Assembly (NCBI GenBank): GCA_005772945.1
Contig: SXIE01000192.1
Coordinates: 1-16,690 of the forward strand
Length of the DNA: 16,690 nt
Direction of reading: 5' to 3'
Origin: Pseudomonadota bacterium
Lineage (GTDB): Bacteria; Myxococcota; UBA9042; PHBI01
The notes beneath the pieces are model-generated. The model worked only from the letters and a program-made list of their open reading frames with translations, had not been told where the DNA came from and searched no databases. The number at the start of each line of letters is the position of its first letter. The stretch's first letter is position 1. A program made the translations under genes and the position numbers. Below are positions 1-16,690 of this stretch, piece by piece.

Positions 1-148
1 AAGTCGCCGTCTCGCGGTCGTCGAGGCCGCGAAAATAGACGGCCATCGCCAGCGCGGCCATCTGCTCGTCGGGCAGCGTGCCGGCGCTGTAGGCGGCGAT
101 CATGGCGCGAATGTCGGCGTCGGCCAGCGCGCCGCCGTCCCGCAGCTC
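1..148 (-). pseudogene. deoA: Inverted N-terminal fragment of thymidine phosphorylase
   Basis: Read on the minus strand from about 145 down to 2, this stretch encodes LRDGGALADADIR, then MIAAY, then LPDEQMAALAMAVYFRGLDD and RETAT. This is the classic N-terminal helical domain of thymidine/pyrimidine-nucleoside phosphorylases (family pattern KRDGxxLsdxeIr...pdyQmaAlaMaiyfrGm...ET). The reading frame runs off the left edge at about family residue 50. The rest of the gene, from about family residue 110 onward, is on the opposite strand starting near 149. The roughly 60 residues between, including the phosphate-binding KHSTGGVGD loop, are not in the window. The codon register is the same on both strands across the junction, and the plus frame is open all the way to the left edge, so an automatic caller may extend the plus gene through this antisense segment. 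The homology is clear by eye. Whether the rearrangement is biological or an assembly error cannot be decided here. Confidence 0.8.
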
Positions 149-1105
149 GCCGGTCGCGGGCTCGGACACACCGGCGGGACGCTCGACAAGCTCGAGGCGA
201 TCCCCGGCTTTCAGGTCGGCCTCTCCGAGGACGACTTCGAGCGTGTCCTGCGCGAGGTGGGATGCGTCATCGCCGGCGCCACCGCGATGCTTGCACCGGC
301 CGACAAGCGTCTCTACGCCCTGCGCGACGTGACCGCGACGGTGTCGTCGATCCCGCTCATCGTCAGCTCGATCATGTCCAAGAAGCTCGCCGAGGGCCTG
401 GACGCGCTGGTCCTCGACGTCAAGGTCGGGCGCGCCGCCTTCATGCCGACGATCGAGGCCGCCCGCGAGCTCGCGCGCCGCATGATCGCGGTCGGCACGC
501 GCACTGGCGTCCGCACGCAGGCGGTCCTGACGCGCATGGAGGAGCCGCTCGGGCGCATGGTCGGCAACGCCTGCGAGGTCCGCGAGGCGCTCGACGTGCT
601 CGAGGACGCGGGTCCGCCCGACCTCACCGCGCTGACGCTCGTGCTGGCGGGACGCATGATCGCCGCGGGCTTCGACATCGCGCCCGACGAAGGCCTCGCC
701 CGCGCGCGCGCCGAGCTGACCAGCGGACGCGCCCGCGAGGTCTTCGCCAAGATGGTCGCCGCGCAGGGCGGCGATCTCCTCGCCCTGCCCGCCCCCGCAT
801 CGGAGCTGGTCCTACGCGCCCCGCGCGACGCCTACGTCACCGACATCGACGGCCTCGCGATCGCCCTCGCGCTCGTGCGCCTCGGCGCCGGCCGCGACCG
901 CGCCGACGACGTCATCGACCCGCGCGTAGGCCTGCGCATCGAGGCGCCGCGCGGGTCCCAGGTCTGCCCGGGCGCACCGCTCGCGACCCTCTACCTCGGC
1001 GCACGCGCCCCCGATCCCGGGACGCTCGCGGCCCTCACGGCCGCGTTCGCCCTCGGTGACGCACCGGTCCCCCACGCCCCGCTTGTGCTCGAGACGATGG
1101 GCTGA
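149..1105 (+). CDS. deoA: Thymidine phosphorylase, C-terminal part of a rearranged gene
   Basis: This encodes the alpha/beta and C-terminal domains of a thymidine phosphorylase (nucleoside phosphorylase family 2), which cleaves thymidine plus phosphate to thymine and 2-deoxyribose-1-phosphate in the cytosolic salvage pathway. Visible motifs in order are GRGLGHTGGTLDKLE (from about 152), LAPADKRLYALRDVTATV (from about 292), and SSIMSKKLAEGLDALVLDVK followed by VGRAAFMPT. These include the Arg of LRDVTATV, the Ser of SSIM and the Lys of SKKLAEG, which correspond to substrate-binding residues R171, S186 and K190 of E. coli DeoA. The C-terminal domain runs to a TGA at 1103-1105. The first ~110 residues are not joined in sense orientation: their beginning lies inverted at 1-148. 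A GTG at 257 could start a product, but it would lack the N-terminal domain and phosphate loop. If the assembly is right, the gene is probably non-functional. The family identification itself is secure. Confidence 0.88.
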   Translation, partial: AGRGLGHTGGTLDKLEAIPGFQVGLSEDDFERVLREVGCVIAGATAMLAPADKRLYALRDVTATVSSIPLIVSSIMSKKLAEGLDALVLDVKVGRAAFMPTIEAARELARRMIAVGTRTGVRTQAVLTRMEEPLGRMVGNACEVREALDVLEDAGPPDLTALTLVLAGRMIAAGFDIAPDEGLARARAELTSGRAREVFAKMVAAQGGDLLALPAPASELVLRAPRDAYVTDIDGLAIALALVRLGAGRDRADDVIDPRVGLRIEAPRGSQVCPGAPLATLYLGARAPDPGTLAALTAAFALGDAPVPHAPLVLETMG

Positions 1106-2505: not shown

Positions 2506-3381
2506 TCAATCGGCGAAGAACGCGCGCGCCTTCATCGCCCGGTCCGCGGCAGCGCGCGACCCAGCATCGCCGCCGCCGCCGCCGGCGCCGCTGCCGTCGG
2601 GACCAGCGCCCGTGCCGCCGAGACAGTTGTTATAGAGGAGCGAGCACGGTTGCTGCGCCTGCGCCTGCTGGATGCAGCCGGCGTACTCGGCGTTGGTCTG
2701 CTCCTTCTTGTAACACTGCGCATTGACACACATATTGAGGTCCATGAACGCCGTCGAGTTCGGCTTGCTCGCGGCCGAGAAGCACGTGCGGCCACAGATG
2801 TAGTCGCCCTCGTCGCACGACTGCACGCAGCCTCCGACGGCGGGGCACGGGCCGGTCCCGAACTCGGTGCCGGCGTAGCAGGTCACGTACGCGTCGAGGC
2901 ACTTGGTTCGTTGGCACTCGAAGTACTTCTTGTAGTCCTCGTCGGTCGGCGTCTGCGTCGTCGGCAAGCAGGCGTTGTCCTTGAGGCACTTGAGCAAGCC
3001 GACGAACGCCGCGCCCTCGGCCTGGGTGTCGGCCGAGCTGACGCAGTTGTTCGCGCAGGCTTGCTCGGTGCACCCACCCACGCAGTCCGCAATCCCAGGA
3101 CAGAGGCCCTCGCCAAGGCCCTCGGTCGTTTCGCCGGGCGTCGTCTCGGCCACGCTGGTCTCGCCCGTCGTCGTCTCGGCCACGACCGTTTCGTTCGCGC
3201 TGGTCTCGCCGACGCTGGTCTCGCCGGACGTCGTGACCGCCGTCTCGGAGACCGTGGTCTCGGACGTGGTGCTCGTCTCCGAGGTCGTGGAGTCCGTCGG
3301 GCTCACGCCGCCCGCCTTGTCCTCGCACGCCGCCGCCAAGCCCGAGACACCCAAGACAACCAACGCCAACGCGAGCCGCAT
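2506..3381 (-). CDS. Cysteine-rich lipoprotein with duplicated ten-Cys module and Thr/Ser/Glu linker
   Basis: A 291-residue exported lipoprotein of unknown function. Residues 1-18 form a lipoprotein signal peptide (MRLALALVVLGVSGLAAA) with the lipidation site at C19. Residues ~29-88 are a low-complexity spacer built from T, S, E, V and G with recurring GETSV and ETT units, typical of a surface stalk. Residues 94-168 hold ten cysteines (94, 100, 104, 109, 113, 132, 138, 156, 161, 168). Residues 179-253 hold ten more (179, 185, 189, 197, 200, 218, 223, 236, 246, 253) in nearly the same spacing, starting CPxxxxCVxxC in both halves, so the module is duplicated. A Gly-rich tail follows. The ATG at 3381 is preceded by GGGAGGT at 5-nt spacing and leads straight into the signal peptide; a longer in-frame ORF reaching 3621 overlaps the promoters and the radical SAM gene. 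I do not recognise the ten-Cys domain. Confidence 0.9.
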   Translation of the reverse strand: MRLALALVVLGVSGLAAACEDKAGGVSPTDSTTSETSTTSETTVSETAVTTSGETSVGETSANETVVAETTTGETSVAETTPGETTEGLGEGLCPGIADCVGGCTEQACANNCVSSADTQAEGAAFVGLLKCLKDNACLPTTQTPTDEDYKKYFECQRTKCLDAYVTCYAGTEFGTGPCPAVGGCVQSCDEGDYICGRTCFSAASKPNSTAFMDLNMCVNAQCYKKEQTNAEYAGCIQQAQAQQPCSLLYNNCLGGTGAGPDGSGAGGGGGDAGSRAAADRAMKARAFFAD

Positions 3382-3403
3382 ATGGACCTCCCAATGGCGG
3401 CGA

Positions 3404-3432
3404 ACGCTAGGCGGCACCCCCGCCGCTGTCAA
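3404..3432 (-). promoter_or_regulatory. Predicted promoter of the cysteine-rich lipoprotein gene
   Basis: On the minus strand a perfect -35 box TTGACA (3427-3432) is followed after 17 nt by TAGCGT (3404-3409). The expected start site is near 3397, giving a leader of about 16 nt that contains the GGGAGGT ribosome site at 3387-3393. The spacer contains GCGGC and GCCGC as a small inverted repeat. Confidence 0.6.
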
Positions 3433-3483
3433 GCGCTTCCGCTGGGACCCGGCGTGGGCGGCGCGCGGCCGCGACGCTGTACG

Positions 3484-3512
3484 TTGACTCTCGGTCGCCG
3501 GTCGCGTAGGAG
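3484..3512 (+). promoter_or_regulatory. Predicted promoter of the radical SAM operon
   Basis: TTGACT (3484-3489) is followed after 17 nt by TAGGAG (3507-3512). The -35 is good and the -10 only fair. The implied start near 3519 gives a short leader carrying GAGGAGG (3525-3531), 4 nt before the ATG at 3536. It is divergent from the lipoprotein promoter, and the two -35 boxes are about 50 bp apart. Confidence 0.4.
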
Positions 3513-3535
3513 CCTGGCCCCCTCGAGGAGGCCCC

Positions 3536-6441
<2,906 letters not shown>

Positions 6442-8755: not shown

Positions 8756-9466
8756 GTGCTTGCAGTCTATCTCGTGTGCCTCGCCGTCGGCGCCGTGTTC
8801 GTCGGCATGAGCATCTTCGCCGGTCACGACCATGGCGTGGGCGACGGCGACAGCGATCTGGCTGGGCATGACGTCGGTGGGCATGACGTCGGTGGGCATG
8901 ACGTCGGCGGGCATGAGGTCGGCGGGCATGAGGTCGGCGGCCACGACCACGGCGGGTACGCGTCACTGCCGTTTCTGAGCCTGCGCTTCTGGACCTTCGC
9001 AGCCTTCTTCTTCGGGCTCTGCGGCTTGGCGCTGCGCGAGCTCGCCGGGACGCCCGAGCCCGTCACCGCGCTCGCCTCGGCCGCCGTCGGAGCGTTCACC
9101 GGGACCGGTGCCACCTGGCTCATCCGACGCCTCAAGCGTCCGGTCGGCGCGACCGTCGCGAATGATCATTGGGTCGGCCAGGTCGGCGAGATGCTCCATC
9201 CGCTCGGCCCCGGGCAGGTCTCCAAGCTGGTCGTCCGCGCCGGTGCCCGGCCCGAGCGCGAGCTGCTCGCGGTCCTGTCGTACCCCGAGGCGGGGAGCAT
9301 CGACCGCGGCATGCGCGTCATCATCCTGGCGATGCACGACGGCAAAGCCGTGGTGCAATTGGAATCCCAGGCGCTCGGCATGCCGACCGTCGACCCCCAG
9401 GTGCCGGCGGCCCGCGAGCAACACGAGCAACACGAGTCCCACGAGAACGCGAAGGAGGACGCATGA
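8756..9466 (+). CDS. NfeD-like/YqiJ-type membrane protein with His-rich GHDVG repeats
   Basis: A 236-residue inner-membrane partner of flotillins. Membrane segments lie at residues 1-22, ~77-95 and ~103-121. They are followed by an OB-fold NfeD-type domain (~130-207; VGQVGEMLHPLGPGQVSKLV, DRGMRVIILAMHDGKAVVQL). Between the first two membrane helices lies a loop (23-68) of repeated GHDVG/GHEVG units with nine His and many Asp/Glu. Family members often carry a similarly acidic repetitive loop. The C-terminal tail is also His/Glu rich (EQHEQHESHE). The ClpP-like protease domain of long NfeD proteins is absent. GTG 8756 is the only plausible start: an in-frame TAA lies 12 nt upstream, the next Met is inside the first membrane helix, and no Shine-Dalgarno fits between. 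It ends in an ATGA overlap with the flotillin gene. Confidence 0.87.
   Translation: MLAVYLVCLAVGAVFVGMSIFAGHDHGVGDGDSDLAGHDVGGHDVGGHDVGGHEVGGHEVGGHDHGGYASLPFLSLRFWTFAAFFFGLCGLALRELAGTPEPVTALASAAVGAFTGTGATWLIRRLKRPVGATVANDHWVGQVGEMLHPLGPGQVSKLVVRAGARPERELLAVLSYPEAGSIDRGMRVIILAMHDGKAVVQLESQALGMPTVDPQVPAAREQHEQHESHENAKEDA
8864..8953 (+). repeat. Six tandem 15-bp units encoding GHDVG-type pentapeptides
   Basis: The unit GGGCATGACGTCGGT occurs at 8864, 8879 and 8894 (near identical), then as GGGCATGAGGTCGGC at 8909 and 8924, and as a diverged GGCCACGACCACGGC at 8939. The period is exactly 15 bp, so copy-number change would keep the frame. It codes the His/Asp/Glu loop of the NfeD-like protein. 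Confidence 0.92.
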
Positions 9467-10824
9467 GACTTCTTGCCGCCAGCGAACTACTGGACCCGAG
9501 CCTTTGGAAAACAGTCGGGATCTATTCAGCAATCGCCATCGCCAGCATCGCGCTGCTGATCCTCTTCATCAAGAGCTTCCTCAAGATCGGACGCCCGAAC
9601 GAGATCCTGATCTTCTCGGGCCGAAAGCACACGAACGCCGAAGGCGCGGCCGTCGGATGGCGCTACATCGCCGGTGGGCGCGCGATCCGCTGGCCGATCA
9701 TCGAGCGCGTGGACCGCATGGACATCACGACGATGCCGATCGAAATCCGCATCCGCGCGGCGTACGCCAAAGGGAATATCCCGGTGAGCGTCGACGCCGT
9801 CGCGAACGTGAAGATCACGCTCGATGAACCGAACGTCCATCATGCGATCGAGCGCTTTCTGGGCCGCTCACAGGACGAGATCCAGAAGGTCGCCAAGGAG
9901 ACCCTCGAGGGCACGCTGCGCGGCGTCATCGCGCAGCTGACGCCCGAGGAGATCAATCACGACCGCCAGAAGCTCTCCGAGGTCATGCGCCAGGAGGTCG
10001 CCGATGACCTCGGGCGCCTCGGCCTGATGGTCGACACGTTCAAGATTCAGCACGTGACCGACGACGTGAAGTACCTCGACTCGATCAGCCGCGTGCGCAT
10101 CGCCGAGGTGCTGCGCGACGCCGAAATCGCCGAGTCGAACGCCCACCGCGAGGCCGAGGAGGCTATCGCGGGCGCGTCGATGCGGGGGCAGGTCGCGGGC
10201 GAGCAGGCGGCCTCGGCGGTCGCCGAGAGCGAGAACGAGCTGGCGCGCCAGAAGGCCGAGCTGGAGTCGCGCGCGAAGTCCGAAGAGGAGCGCACGATCG
10301 CCGCCGGGCGCGAGGCGCGCGCGACGATGGAGCAGCAGCTTCAGACCGTTCGCAAGAGCGTCGAGCAGCTGCGCCTCGAGGCCGAGCAGGTGATCCCGGC
10401 GCAGCGCGAGGCCGAGGCGGCGGCCCTCCGAGCGGCCGGCGATGCGGCGATCAAAGCCGAGACCGGCAAGGCGCAGGGGCAGGCGCTCGCGGCGCTCTAC
10501 TCTGCGTGGAAGACGGCCGGCCCGCGGGCGCGCGAGGTCTTCCTCATCCAACAGGTCGACCAGATCTTGGCGGACGTCGCGAGCGTGACGGCGAACCTCG
10601 AGATCGGCCACGTGACGCTCATCGACAGCGGCAACGGCGAGAGCCTCGCGCGCTACATCGGCTCCTTCCCGCAGGTCGTGGGCGAGATCCTCGGCCGCAT
10701 CAAGGACACTGTCGGCGTCGACGTCGCGGCGATCCTCTCGAACTCGGGCGGCAGCAACGTCGCCCCGGCGCCCGCGGCTCCGCGCGCGACGCTCCGCTCA
10801 CCCGCCGACAAGGAGACCACCTGA
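9463..10824 (+). CDS. Flotillin/SPFH-domain protein (first copy)
   Basis: A 453-residue flotillin-like protein. A short N-terminus is followed by one membrane segment (~17-38), then the SPFH/PHB domain (~43-215; GRPNEILIFSGRKH, VDRMDITTMPIEIRIRAAYA, VSVDAVANVKI). The AxAE-rich coiled coil (~225-350) is typical of flotillins, with many Glu-Ala pairs. A C-terminal region (~355-425) follows the flotillin pattern (EVFLIQQVDQILADV), then a variable Ala/Pro tail. Flotillins assemble into membrane rings and microdomains on the inner membrane, with an NfeD partner. The ATG at 9463 overlaps the NfeD stop (ATGA), and AAGGAGG lies 4 nt upstream. It is closely related along its length to the next gene (AIERFLGRSQDEI here, AVERLLGKSRDEI there), so the two are tandem paralogues. 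Confidence 0.93.
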   Translation: MRLLAASELLDPSLWKTVGIYSAIAIASIALLILFIKSFLKIGRPNEILIFSGRKHTNAEGAAVGWRYIAGGRAIRWPIIERVDRMDITTMPIEIRIRAAYAKGNIPVSVDAVANVKITLDEPNVHHAIERFLGRSQDEIQKVAKETLEGTLRGVIAQLTPEEINHDRQKLSEVMRQEVADDLGRLGLMVDTFKIQHVTDDVKYLDSISRVRIAEVLRDAEIAESNAHREAEEAIAGASMRGQVAGEQAASAVAESENELARQKAELESRAKSEEERTIAAGREARATMEQQLQTVRKSVEQLRLEAEQVIPAQREAEAAALRAAGDAAIKAETGKAQGQALAALYSAWKTAGPRAREVFLIQQVDQILADVASVTANLEIGHVTLIDSGNGESLARYIGSFPQVVGEILGRIKDTVGVDVAAILSNSGGSNVAPAPAAPRATLRSPADKETT

Positions 10825-12179
10825 TGGACGCCGGACTCGTCATCGTCCTCGTCATCGCGATCGCGGTCGCGGTGCTCCTCCTCTCGGTGAAATCCCTGGT
10901 CGTCATCTGCCAGCCGTCCGAGGTCGTCATCTTCTCGGGACCGCCCAAGCGCGAGGGCGCGCGCGTCGGCTATCGGGCGGTGCGCGGCGGCCGTGGGCTG
11001 CGCATCCCGATGTTCGAGATCGTCAGCCGCCTCGACGTCTCGAACATGTCGGTCGAGGTCGCGGTGCGCGGCGCGTACACGCGCGAGGGCGTGCCGCTCA
11101 ACGTCCAGGGCGTCGCGAACTTGAAGATCGACGGCGACGCGCCCGGGCTCGACAACGCGGTCGAGCGCCTCTTGGGAAAGAGCCGCGACGAGATCGCCAA
11201 GATGGGACGCGAGACCCTCGAAGGCAACCTGCGCGGCGTGCTCGCGCGGCTCACGCCCGAGCAGGTCAACGAGGACAAGGAGAGCTTCGCGCGCGAGCTG
11301 ATCGAGGAAGCCGAGGCGGACCTCGGGCGGCTCGGGCTCTTGCTCGACACGCTCAAGATCCAGACGGTCGCGGACGAGGTCGGCTACCTCGACTCGATCG
11401 GGCGCAAGCAGGGGGCTGTGCTCATCCGACGCTCGCGCATCGCCGAGGCCGAGCGTCAGTCCGAGGCGGTGGTCCAGTCCGCGATGAACATGCAGCGGAC
11501 GCGCGTCGCCCAGATCGCGGCCGAGACCGAGATCAACATCGCGACGGCCAATCGCCGAATCGTGAAAGCGACGAGCTCGCGGCCCGCGGTCGTGGCTCAG
11601 GAGCGCTCGGCGATCGAGTCGCAGATCGCGCGCGCCGAGGCCGAGGTGGGCGTGCAGAAGGCCCGCATCGAGCAGGTGCGCGTGCAGCTCGAGGCCGATC
11701 TCGTGGCGCCGGCGCGTGCCTATCGCCTGCAGATGGAGGCGCAGGCCCAGGCGGATACCGCCGCAATTCGCGAGTCGGGCATGGCGACCGCCGAGGGCTT
11801 GAAGCAGCTCGCCGAGCGGTGGCGCGAAGCCGGTGACAGCGCGCGAGAGATCTTCCTGCTCGAGAAGCTGCGGACGCTCGTCGGTATCATGGTCGGTACC
11901 GTCAAGAACGCGCGCGTCGACCAGATCACGTTCGTCGGCTCGGGTGGCGACGCGGGGACCCCGATGGCGGGGAAGGTCGCGAGCCTCATGGAGCAGCTGC
12001 GCGCGAGCGGCATCGACGTCCCCGAGCTGCTCAGCAGCGCGTCCGTCGGGATGAGCGCGATCGGGCAGCGGGCGCCGGTTCGGGCGTCGACCACTCCGAC
12101 GGCTCCGACCCCACCGACGGCGCCGCCGCCGACGCCCGCGGCTCCAACGCCACCGGCCCGGTCGCGCAAATCGCCGTGA
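10824..12179 (+). CDS. Flotillin/SPFH-domain protein (second copy)
   Basis: A 451-residue flotillin paralogue. One N-terminal membrane segment (~4-28, starting almost at the first residue) is followed by the SPFH domain (~30-205; QPSEVVIFSG, IVSRLDVSNMSVEVAVRGAY), a long Glu/Ala/Arg/Gln-rich coiled coil (~205-345), and the flotillin C-terminal region (EIFLLEKLRTLVGIMVGTV). The last ~35 residues are a Pro/Thr/Ala tail ending in basic residues (PPARSRKSP), absent from the first copy. The start overlaps the previous stop by one base (TGATG), with AAGGAG 8 nt upstream, so both paralogues should be made together and could form mixed oligomers. The N-terminus before the membrane helix is shorter than in the first copy. 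Confidence 0.93.
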   Translation: MDAGLVIVLVIAIAVAVLLLSVKSLVVICQPSEVVIFSGPPKREGARVGYRAVRGGRGLRIPMFEIVSRLDVSNMSVEVAVRGAYTREGVPLNVQGVANLKIDGDAPGLDNAVERLLGKSRDEIAKMGRETLEGNLRGVLARLTPEQVNEDKESFARELIEEAEADLGRLGLLLDTLKIQTVADEVGYLDSIGRKQGAVLIRRSRIAEAERQSEAVVQSAMNMQRTRVAQIAAETEINIATANRRIVKATSSRPAVVAQERSAIESQIARAEAEVGVQKARIEQVRVQLEADLVAPARAYRLQMEAQAQADTAAIRESGMATAEGLKQLAERWREAGDSAREIFLLEKLRTLVGIMVGTVKNARVDQITFVGSGGDAGTPMAGKVASLMEQLRASGIDVPELLSSASVGMSAIGQRAPVRASTTPTAPTPPTAPPPTPAAPTPPARSRKSP

Positions 12180-12309: not shown

Positions 12310-13620
12310 ATGACGGCTCCAGACGCAAAGAAGAACTTCATCCTGACGGCGGACTTCGAGGGTCAGGAGGCCCTGCTGCGCCCGCCGAACGAGCCCGTCG
12401 TCGAGGTCGCCCTTCCGCGCCCGGGCGCCGACACTTGCGCTTCGACGCAAGTATCATCCGCACCGCTCGCCGAGAACCACGCGCCCGCGCACCGCTTCGT
12501 CCTCCAGCCGACGGCCCACCCGCAGTGGTCCGAGTTCCTGGCGCGCGCCCTCGCGCATGGACTCTCGGCGTGGCAGGCGCATGCCGCCTTTGGCCTCGCG
12601 ATGCAGGCGCTGCACGGCGCGGACGCGAGCGAGCGCGCGCAGGGCCTCTCGCAACTCGGCCCCGAGCTCGATGCCTGGCTCCGCCCGAGCACCACCCTGG
12701 TCGTGGGTCCCATCAGCATGCTCGCGCCGAGCGCGAGTCCCGTCGCGAGCCCGGCGCTCCCGGGGCTGAGCCTGTTCGCTGGGCTCGCGCTTCCGGAGAC
12801 GAGCCCGGAGCGCATCGCCTCGATCACCGCGGCGCTCACGGGGTGGGCCGCGGGGCACGCGCCCTCCTTCCGCCTGTTCGCGCCCGAGGGCGAGTCGCCG
12901 CCGCCACTCGATCTGGTTCTCGCCATCGCCACGGCGCGTGCGCGTCCCGCCGAACGGGTGCCTTTGCCAGGGTTCGCGGCGCCCGCGATCGAGGACCCCC
13001 TCGCCCTCATCGACAGCGGCGTCATGCTCCACGAGCTCCGAGCGGCCTACGCGCTGGCGGAACACGCCCCCGCGGACGCGATCGCGCGGCTGCCGGCGCT
13101 CATCCGACGTGGACCGATCCCGGCCGCGCGGATCACGCTCATGAACGCCCTGTCGGACGCCTTGCGGCGCCATCACGGCCTGCCGGCGCCCCAACCGAAC
13201 GCGCCTGGCCTCCTCGCGCAGATCACCGCGCGCCTCCAGTCCCCGCTTGCTGCCGTCACGGCCACCGCGCTGGCCGAGCTCGAGACCCTCGCGCGCGCGC
13301 CCGACCCACTCGCCTTGGGCCTCGACCTTGCGACGCGCTACCCCGATGCCCTCACGACCGCTCGCCAAGCGCTCGCCAAGGGCATGCGCGTGCCGCGCTG
13401 GGTCATCGCCAATACCGAGGGTGCCGATCGCGGACTGCTCTGCGCCACGCTCATGGGACGCCTGCCCAGCCCCGACGGACACCTCTTGCAAGCGCTCGCC
13501 GACCTGGCCCCCGCCGACCTCGGCCCCGCCCTCGCCGAGACAGCGCGCCTGTCGTGGATCGACGACGCGACTCGCCGCGCTGCGCAAGACTGGCTCGCGC
13601 GCCTCCGACGCGCGACGTGA
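12310..13620 (+). CDS. Uncharacterised Ala/Leu/Pro-rich helical protein
   Basis: A 436-residue protein I do not recognise. There is no signal peptide or clear membrane helix, so it is probably cytosolic. A less structured N-terminus (~1-60; FILTADFEGQEALL, EPVVEVALPRPG) precedes a mostly helical body. The regularly spaced Ala/Leu helices (LSAWQAHAAFGLAMQALHG, LAALAELETLAR-like stretches, LLQALADLAPADLGPALAE) suggest a HEAT-like or other alpha-solenoid scaffold. The plus frame is chosen over a 391-residue minus-strand ORF in the same place because its third positions are consistently G/C. The ATG lacks a clear Shine-Dalgarno. It sits 8 nt after the 21-bp repeats and converges on dapA 44 bp downstream. 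Confidence 0.75.
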   Translation: MTAPDAKKNFILTADFEGQEALLRPPNEPVVEVALPRPGADTCASTQVSSAPLAENHAPAHRFVLQPTAHPQWSEFLARALAHGLSAWQAHAAFGLAMQALHGADASERAQGLSQLGPELDAWLRPSTTLVVGPISMLAPSASPVASPALPGLSLFAGLALPETSPERIASITAALTGWAAGHAPSFRLFAPEGESPPPLDLVLAIATARARPAERVPLPGFAAPAIEDPLALIDSGVMLHELRAAYALAEHAPADAIARLPALIRRGPIPAARITLMNALSDALRRHHGLPAPQPNAPGLLAQITARLQSPLAAVTATALAELETLARAPDPLALGLDLATRYPDALTTARQALAKGMRVPRWVIANTEGADRGLLCATLMGRLPSPDGHLLQALADLAPADLGPALAETARLSWIDDATRRAAQDWLARLRRAT

Positions 13621-15304: not shown

Positions 15305-16690
15305 TCAACGTGCGTAGGTGATGCTCTCGGCGTCGGCGAACTTGACCGCTGGGATCATGACCTCGCCCATGCCCCCGGACGTCACGCCGCAGAACGCGCC
15401 GGCCGGCGCTAGGTCGAACTGGGTGAAGCCGAGACCGTCGATCGCGGTCGGCCGGTACACGTTGGGAGCGAGCCCCCTGGCCGTCTTCGTGATCGTCTTC
15501 TTCAGGTTCACGACGACGGCGCCGGTGTTGTACGCGGCGGTCTCTTCGATCGCGAGCTTCTGCCTGAGGGCCGCCAGGTCATACGTCTTGAGGAGCGAGA
15601 TCGGCGCGGTGGCGTCCGCGGTCCAGTACGCGATACCGCCGCCGCCGGTGATCTCCAAGTCGGCCAATGCGCCGACGTCGGTCACCTGGAACGCCCCGCC
15701 ACCCCGGAGGTAGGCTTCGATGAACGGCGTCTTGGTCGCCCGCGTGAGCGCGTCGTAGGCAGCCACTGGCGGCGTGATCTTCTGCTGAGTCTTGGCGCCG
15801 GTCGCGGGATCGGTCACCTCTTGCGTGGGATACGCAGGGTTGGCGTCGTTCGCGGTCATGATGCGCGTCTTCAGTGAAGCGCCGGGGTCGTTGAAGGCGA
15901 TGACGTTGACGATCGGGATGGCCTTGCACAGATCAGGGATGGTCGCGTCGCTGATGGGGGTCTCAGTGCCCGCCAAGGTGTACGGCGGCCTACGCAGAGC
16001 CTGCATGTGAGTCCACGCGTCCTTGCTGGTGTCGGCGAGGATGTTCGTCCGCAGCTCGGCGATGAAGTCGATCGGCGTCTGCGCGTTGCGGAATCCTGGA
16101 TCGGCCGCGATGCGGCGCAGATTCTCACCGGCAGGTCCGGCGCAGATCTGCTGGAGTTCCGTCGCGGGGTTGCCGGTGGCGTTGATGAGCGCCGCGGCGA
16201 GATTCCGGTTCGACGACAACGCCGCCTCGGCCGCCACGCGCGTCGCGTTCCAGTGGGCGAGCTTGGTCGTGTCGGTCATCGTCGCGAGGCGCACGACCGG
16301 GTCGGTGATCTTCAGGAGATCGGTCCGCTCGTTCGGGGTGATCGCCAGCCACGCCGTGCAGGCCGGGGCATTGGAGACGATGGTCTCGAAGTAGGCGAGG
16401 TGTTCCGCCGTCGCCACCATCGCATCGATGGTCGCGCGCTTGTCGGTCGTGCCGACGTAGAACGGCTTGGACGCGGCCAGCTTGAAGTAGGTCCGCTTCT
16501 GCGAGGTGGGCATCGCCATCAGCGCCGTCTGCGTCGGCACGTCGGCGACCGACTGGCACTGCGTCTTCAGCTCCACGGGCAGGGTCGCGAGGTGGGCCTC
16601 CCACGGCGTGGGCGTGGGTGCGGGTGCCGGCGTGGGCCCTGGCGTGGGCCCTGGCCCTGGCGTGGGCCCGGGCGCGGGTGTGGGCGTCGG
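15305..16690 (-). CDS. Large proline-linker protein, 5' end beyond the window; candidate effector/toxin
   Basis: The visible C-terminal 461 residues of a longer protein. The frame is open to the right edge, so the GTG at 16576 is probably not the start. The first 29 visible residues are a Pro/Thr/Gly/Ala linker (PTPGPTPGP-type). A helical middle region follows (about 16600-15800; MAMPTSQKRTYFKLA, TIDAMVATAEHLAYFETIV, NERTDLLKI). A C-terminal ~150-residue domain from about 15750 to the end mixes strands and Gly-rich turns: FIEAYLRGGGAF, ITGGGGIAYWTADA, AYNTGAVVVNL, and a conserved-looking end FCGVTSGGMGEVMIP. An Arg early and a Gly-Glu-Val near the end (Glu at 15362-15364) recall ADP-ribosyltransferase toxins, but this is only a resemblance. 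A Pro-rich linker, variable C-terminal module and adjacent small gene suit a secreted or injected effector. The N-terminal delivery domain, which would settle this, is outside the window. Confidence 0.8.
   Translation of the reverse strand, partial: PTPTPAPGPTPGPGPTPGPTPAPAPTPTPWEAHLATLPVELKTQCQSVADVPTQTALMAMPTSQKRTYFKLAASKPFYVGTTDKRATIDAMVATAEHLAYFETIVSNAPACTAWLAITPNERTDLLKITDPVVRLATMTDTTKLAHWNATRVAAEAALSSNRNLAAALINATGNPATELQQICAGPAGENLRRIAADPGFRNAQTPIDFIAELRTNILADTSKDAWTHMQALRRPPYTLAGTETPISDATIPDLCKAIPIVNVIAFNDPGASLKTRIMTANDANPAYPTQEVTDPATGAKTQQKITPPVAAYDALTRATKTPFIEAYLRGGGAFQVTDVGALADLEITGGGGIAYWTADATAPISLLKTYDLAALRQKLAIEETAAYNTGAVVVNLKKTITKTARGLAPNVYRPTAIDGLGFTQFDLAPAGAFCGVTSGGMGEVMIPAVKFADAESITYAR
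16604..16690 (-). repeat. Low-complexity Pro/Thr/Gly linker-coding repeat
   Basis: On the minus strand, 29 codons encode alternating Pro with Thr, Gly or Ala (units such as PTPGP), continuing past the right edge. At DNA level the plus strand repeats GTGGGC and CCTGGC/GGCCCT motifs in 6-bp steps. Such stretches vary in copy number and assemble poorly. It reads as a flexible linker between an unseen N-terminal domain and the visible helical region. Confidence 0.85.

Follow-up and report, generated by a model that had tools for sequence, protein, structure and literature searches.

The stretch of DNA analysed here (the window, 16,690 bases) comes from an uncultured bacterium related to Deltaproteobacteria/Myxococcota and carries at its left end two pieces of a thymidine phosphorylase gene in opposite orientation. 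The N-terminal part lies on the minus strand at 1-142, where it corresponds to positions 13-58 of NF004490 (the NCBIfam thymidine phosphorylase model, 439 positions) and continues past the left edge of the record. The remainder lies on the plus strand at 150-1105 and reads, without an internal stop, from an S/A-GRGLGHTGG motif (profile position ~112) to the stop codon. The minus-strand frame in 1-178 has 59 residues, of which 12-58 match NF004490 positions 12-58 (E 4.9e-12) and 10-58 match the Pfam family Glycos_trans_3N (PF02885, E 3.8e-13); when the query is trimmed to 1-145 the NF004490 match stands at 13-58. On the plus strand, 149-1105 corresponds to NF004490 positions 112-436 (E 4.2e-110), with further matches to PF00591 and PYNP_C. 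E-values of this size exclude chance as the source of either family match, and the helical N-terminal, central and C-terminal phosphorylase domains (NF004490, TIGR02644) are all recognisable in the record. The matches to NF004490 and Pfam on both strands bear out an earlier note on this DNA, which had placed the N-terminal part on the minus strand and the later domains on the plus strand, and the inverted arrangement of the two pieces in the record is confirmed. Both pieces are open and undecayed.

The same note had proposed that a segment is missing between the halves and that the plus frame stays open through the antisense stretch, and both proposals hold. Allowing up to 3 mismatches, neither strand of the window contains a segment coding for KHSTGGVGD. 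As assembled, the record lacks ~55 residues including the KHSTGGVGD loop and has the N-terminal part reversed; the gene in this form is without the phosphate-binding segment present in a functional phosphorylase. DNA coding for that segment may be present further left, beyond position 1. Translated in the plus frame, 2-148 matched no family in either profile library at E 0.1, and none of 215 fetched phosphorylase-related proteins at E <= 1e-3. The tail (as we call the first ~149 bases) has a GC content of 72%, and, with no family or protein match, its plus frame is open as a read-through of GC-rich DNA in antisense.

Elsewhere in the record, a cysteine-containing lipoprotein-like protein with a Thr/Ser/Glu-rich stretch and no Pfam match is encoded at 2506-3621 on the minus strand. 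Two adjacent Band_7/SPFH (flotillin-like) proteins lie on the plus strand at 9169-12179, preceded by a small protein (8756-9466) with a His/Gly/Asp-rich stretch and no Pfam match, and a 436-residue protein, also with no Pfam match, is encoded at 12310-13620 on the plus strand. At its right end too the record breaks off in difficult sequence, GC-rich tandem repeats with periods of 12 and 18 (16629-16685) that encode a PTPAPGP-type linker within a minus-strand open frame (15305-16690). These repeats suggest an assembly break at the right end.

P0003, a 385-residue protein from a JGI contig of 1,426 bases, came out as the nearest match, sharing 92.7% identity with the plus part across 317 residues; upstream of these it continues collinearly through the join and into the segment absent from the window. 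It begins with the same 15 residues that end the window tail; P0006 and P0007 share them, so they cannot serve to identify the species. The P0003 gene call starts at an internal methionine (MAVYF...) near profile position 44 and has no N-terminal domain match, and its contig may be cut at that methionine or its 5' part may be odd as well. A search with P0003 residues 1-80 gave no second piece of the same species among the best 120 of 7998 proteins scored, the next after P0003 itself being P0006 at 90%. A syntenic relative, L001 (JAEUKJ010000526.1, from a MAG named Deltaproteobacteria), has an intact phosphorylase frame of 444 residues with no stops, followed in the window's order and orientation by M50-like, lipoprotein-like, radical SAM, thioredoxin-like and DUF6029 proteins; at the threshold used, L001 gave no hit for the CBS protein.

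The collinear arrangement extends to all relatives that could be compared. Among 66 loci examined, both pieces could be placed in 37 (34 distinct places, three pairs being the same place twice); at a threshold of E 1e-8, one or both pieces went unmatched in the other 29, which were left uncounted. In 37/37 the pieces lie on one strand, 154-199 bases apart. P0003 was matched in 267/377 genomes of the phylum of G001, and at the places listed among those 267 the match runs from query residue 1-4 across the join position with no stops. No inverted join occurs in the 37 placed loci, nor in the places listed among the 267 matching genomes. That the same inverted join might occur elsewhere, as the 99% coverage of P0003 and the high coverage of some other hits could suggest among 7999 proteins scored, was rejected: in three pairwise alignments the true native segment had been forced into alignment, and the antisense stretch had 0 matches at E <= 1e-3 among 215 fetched proteins. 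Used alone against the protein database, the tail gave no candidate with three words in common. An exact 30-mer of the tail was absent from viral contigs. In a plasmid collection 39 records matched, 38 at 60-80% identity and one at 80-90%, none of them covering 80% of the query. From the collinear relatives, we infer that the native gene is an ordinary collinear thymidine phosphorylase.

Two separate phosphorylase copies lying head to head, one of them truncated, would also place pieces on opposite strands, and some relatives do have two phosphorylase genes (G001 and G002 gave two matches each). The pieces in the window, however, are non-overlapping and complementary parts of one gene, and both rank with the same closest clade of relatives, a few members of which are out of order. 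The best 11 hits of the tail are P0004, P0005, P0006, P0007, P0009, P0010, P0011, P0015, P0017, P0018 and the fragment P0123, while P0013 and P0014 of the same clade fall 62 and 58 places down; with so short a tail and a rank correlation of 0.46 over 212 proteins, the shared ranking stops short of proof. Both pieces fit one ortholog. Two truncated head-to-head copies, one of the options in the earlier note, are accordingly a poor candidate, and we consider them improbable.

The breakpoint lies between 143 and 150 of the 16,690-base record. Per-position identity to 36 relatives, together with the residue before RDG in the protein set, defines a join zone at 143-149 in which ~1-6 bases agree with neither of the native flanks, N-terminal or downstream, as these are conserved in relatives. 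The pattern R-D/N/E-G/R was hit in 197/217 protein records and is preceded by lysine in 195, the two non-lysine hits being misplacements (P0003 has no N-terminus, and KKRDG is present in the sequence of P0104). Where the 195 validly placed proteins have lysine before RDG, the minus strand of the window has leucine. On the other side of the join, PM precedes the two residues before the GHTGG-type motif in 213 of the 214 proteins having the motif, and the second of those two residues is serine in 175 proteins and alanine in 39; the window plus strand reads PQLA. Comparison of these conserved flanking residues with the window indicates that native N-terminal DNA ends at 142-143 and that native downstream DNA starts at ~145-150. 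The odd bases would be fewer if the strain itself were unusual at these residues. From the K of KRDG to GRG there are 101 residues in 24/36 relatives, 103 in nine, 100 in two and 109 in one, giving the two joined points a native spacing of ~300-309 bp, which agrees with the ~300 bp, inversion-type geometry proposed earlier.

Across the join, at 137-151, the tail imperfectly resembles native sequence upstream of the second breakpoint, with a mean of 9.0/15 bases in 37 relatives, whereas antisense registers of the gene average 4.0. This value was reached in 0/136 tail registers and 1/939 antisense gene registers. A patch standing above nearly all control registers would be of use to a reversible intragenic inversion (inverton) that turns the gene on and off. 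Against such a switch, the exact run shared at the right junction is never longer than 7 bases against the 37 relatives, and only the collinear state is seen in relatives that could be compared. Inverted repeats in 1-1200 number 68 pairs, and the 25 listed, all imperfect and GC-rich, are read as chance matches. No recombinase family was matched when the 13 window proteins were compared with Pfam (5 of the 13 matched no family), and the enzyme is a housekeeping one. An inverton is very improbable here; it would mean that a ~300-bp reversible inversion, acting through very short imperfect inverted repeats, turns a nucleoside-salvage enzyme on and off in an uncultured deltaproteobacterial or myxobacterial lineage.

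A recent in-place inversion of ~300 bp in the strain, reversing residues ~10-112 with the phosphate-binding-loop segment and leaving the gene dead, predicts exactly the right-hand junction seen, and the few odd bases there would be in keeping with cellular end joining. Several points count against it: the junction lies within 150 bases of the contig end, a second junction is absent from the record, and no inverted join was met in the 37 placed loci or in the places listed among 267/377 genomes. Neither half is decayed, which a real inversion could show only if it were very recent. A real junction placed uniformly would come this close to one or other end of the 16,690-base record in ~1.8% of cases (by arithmetic). 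We regard an in-place inversion as unlikely. Of the heading of the earlier note, an inversion junction inside the gene, the inverted join is present; an inversion within the gene is not established, and the evidence leans to a chimera.

The chimeric or mis-assembled join, also among the options named in that note, is the reading to which we lean because of the position at the contig end, the undecayed halves, the collinear gene in all comparable relatives and the lack of a useful inverted repeat. The first ~149 bases are probably an inverted (fold-back) chimera at the contig end, a laboratory or assembly artefact. Such a chimera could arise if a 3' end that had been extended along the gene, from the C-terminal end as far as residue ~112, switched to the other strand and annealed ~300 bp onward to a short patch of imperfect complementarity near residue ~10. 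Extension would then run back through residues ~10-57, and the assembly would keep ~142 native bases of this fold-back path before stopping. The stage of origin could be amplification, library making or assembly; an origin in vitro or in silico, and the route just described, are presumed; library making or assembly can also produce such a join by other routes. As is characteristic of fold-back chimeras, two pieces of the same locus are inverted with the interval between them missing, and the joined places are less than 10 kb apart (~300-309 bp in relatives). Chimeras of this type would be expected to have 2-21 complementary bases where priming occurs; the putative priming point here has the imperfect 9.0/15 patch, with runs of up to 7, together with the 1-6 bases that agree with neither conserved flank of the relatives.

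Some observations count against a fold-back chimera. The 1-6 odd bases are not predicted by the simplest re-priming model and do not fit it. The tail is too long for one 150-base read, and the join therefore probably has some depth. A survey of contig ends (36 ends of fetched MAG or genome contigs and the two of the window) found inverted self-matches at 1/38, a weak repeat in L020 that is not a clean fold-back; the survey, which is blind to the present kind and of low power, does not support such artefacts being common. Because of the odd bases, the tail length and this survey, a real inversion retains a small share of the probability. The fold-back chimera and the in-place inversion give an identical right-hand junction and differ only left of position 1. 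Common assembler k-mer values are 127 or 141, and an explanation of the tail as a k-mer overlap was dropped since its length of ~142-143 equals neither. PMC7111523 describes scaffold ends, some of which retain non-unique sequence of length n or n-1.

The join itself has little biological weight. Its lesson is that a fold-back join at a contig end can mimic a gene inversion and seed databases with truncated or antisense-extended proteins, and that comparison with collinear relatives exposes such joins. If the inversion were real, its significance would be that of a single dead allele or, with much lower probability, of a phase switch acting on core metabolism.

Intragenic invertons have reportedly been described by Chanin et al. 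2024 (Nature 634:234). Like them, the window would have its inverted segment within coding sequence; unlike them, it has no inverted-repeat pair of useful length, no recombinase was seen and there is a single junction. A second known system is the chimeras of phi29 multiple displacement amplification (MDA). In Lasken and Stockwell 2007 (PMC1855051), chimeras occur at a frequency of ~1 junction per 22 kb, and the inverted (A'C) form is the commonest type (406/475), given as what displaced 3' ends mainly produce when they re-prime on strands nearby; 337/406 of the inverted chimeras join places <10 kb apart, and inverted junctions in this range have perfect complementarity in 93.5%. PMC4060946 reports more wrongly oriented read pairs in amplified libraries, the re-priming mechanism accounting for only some of them. 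The window differs from most MDA junctions, which in PMC1855051 have perfect short complementarity, in the 1-6 join bases that fit neither flank. In form it resembles the inverted phi29 MDA chimeras of that account, nearby pieces of one locus being inverted and the interval between them lost; an origin by MDA itself would presuppose an amplified sample.
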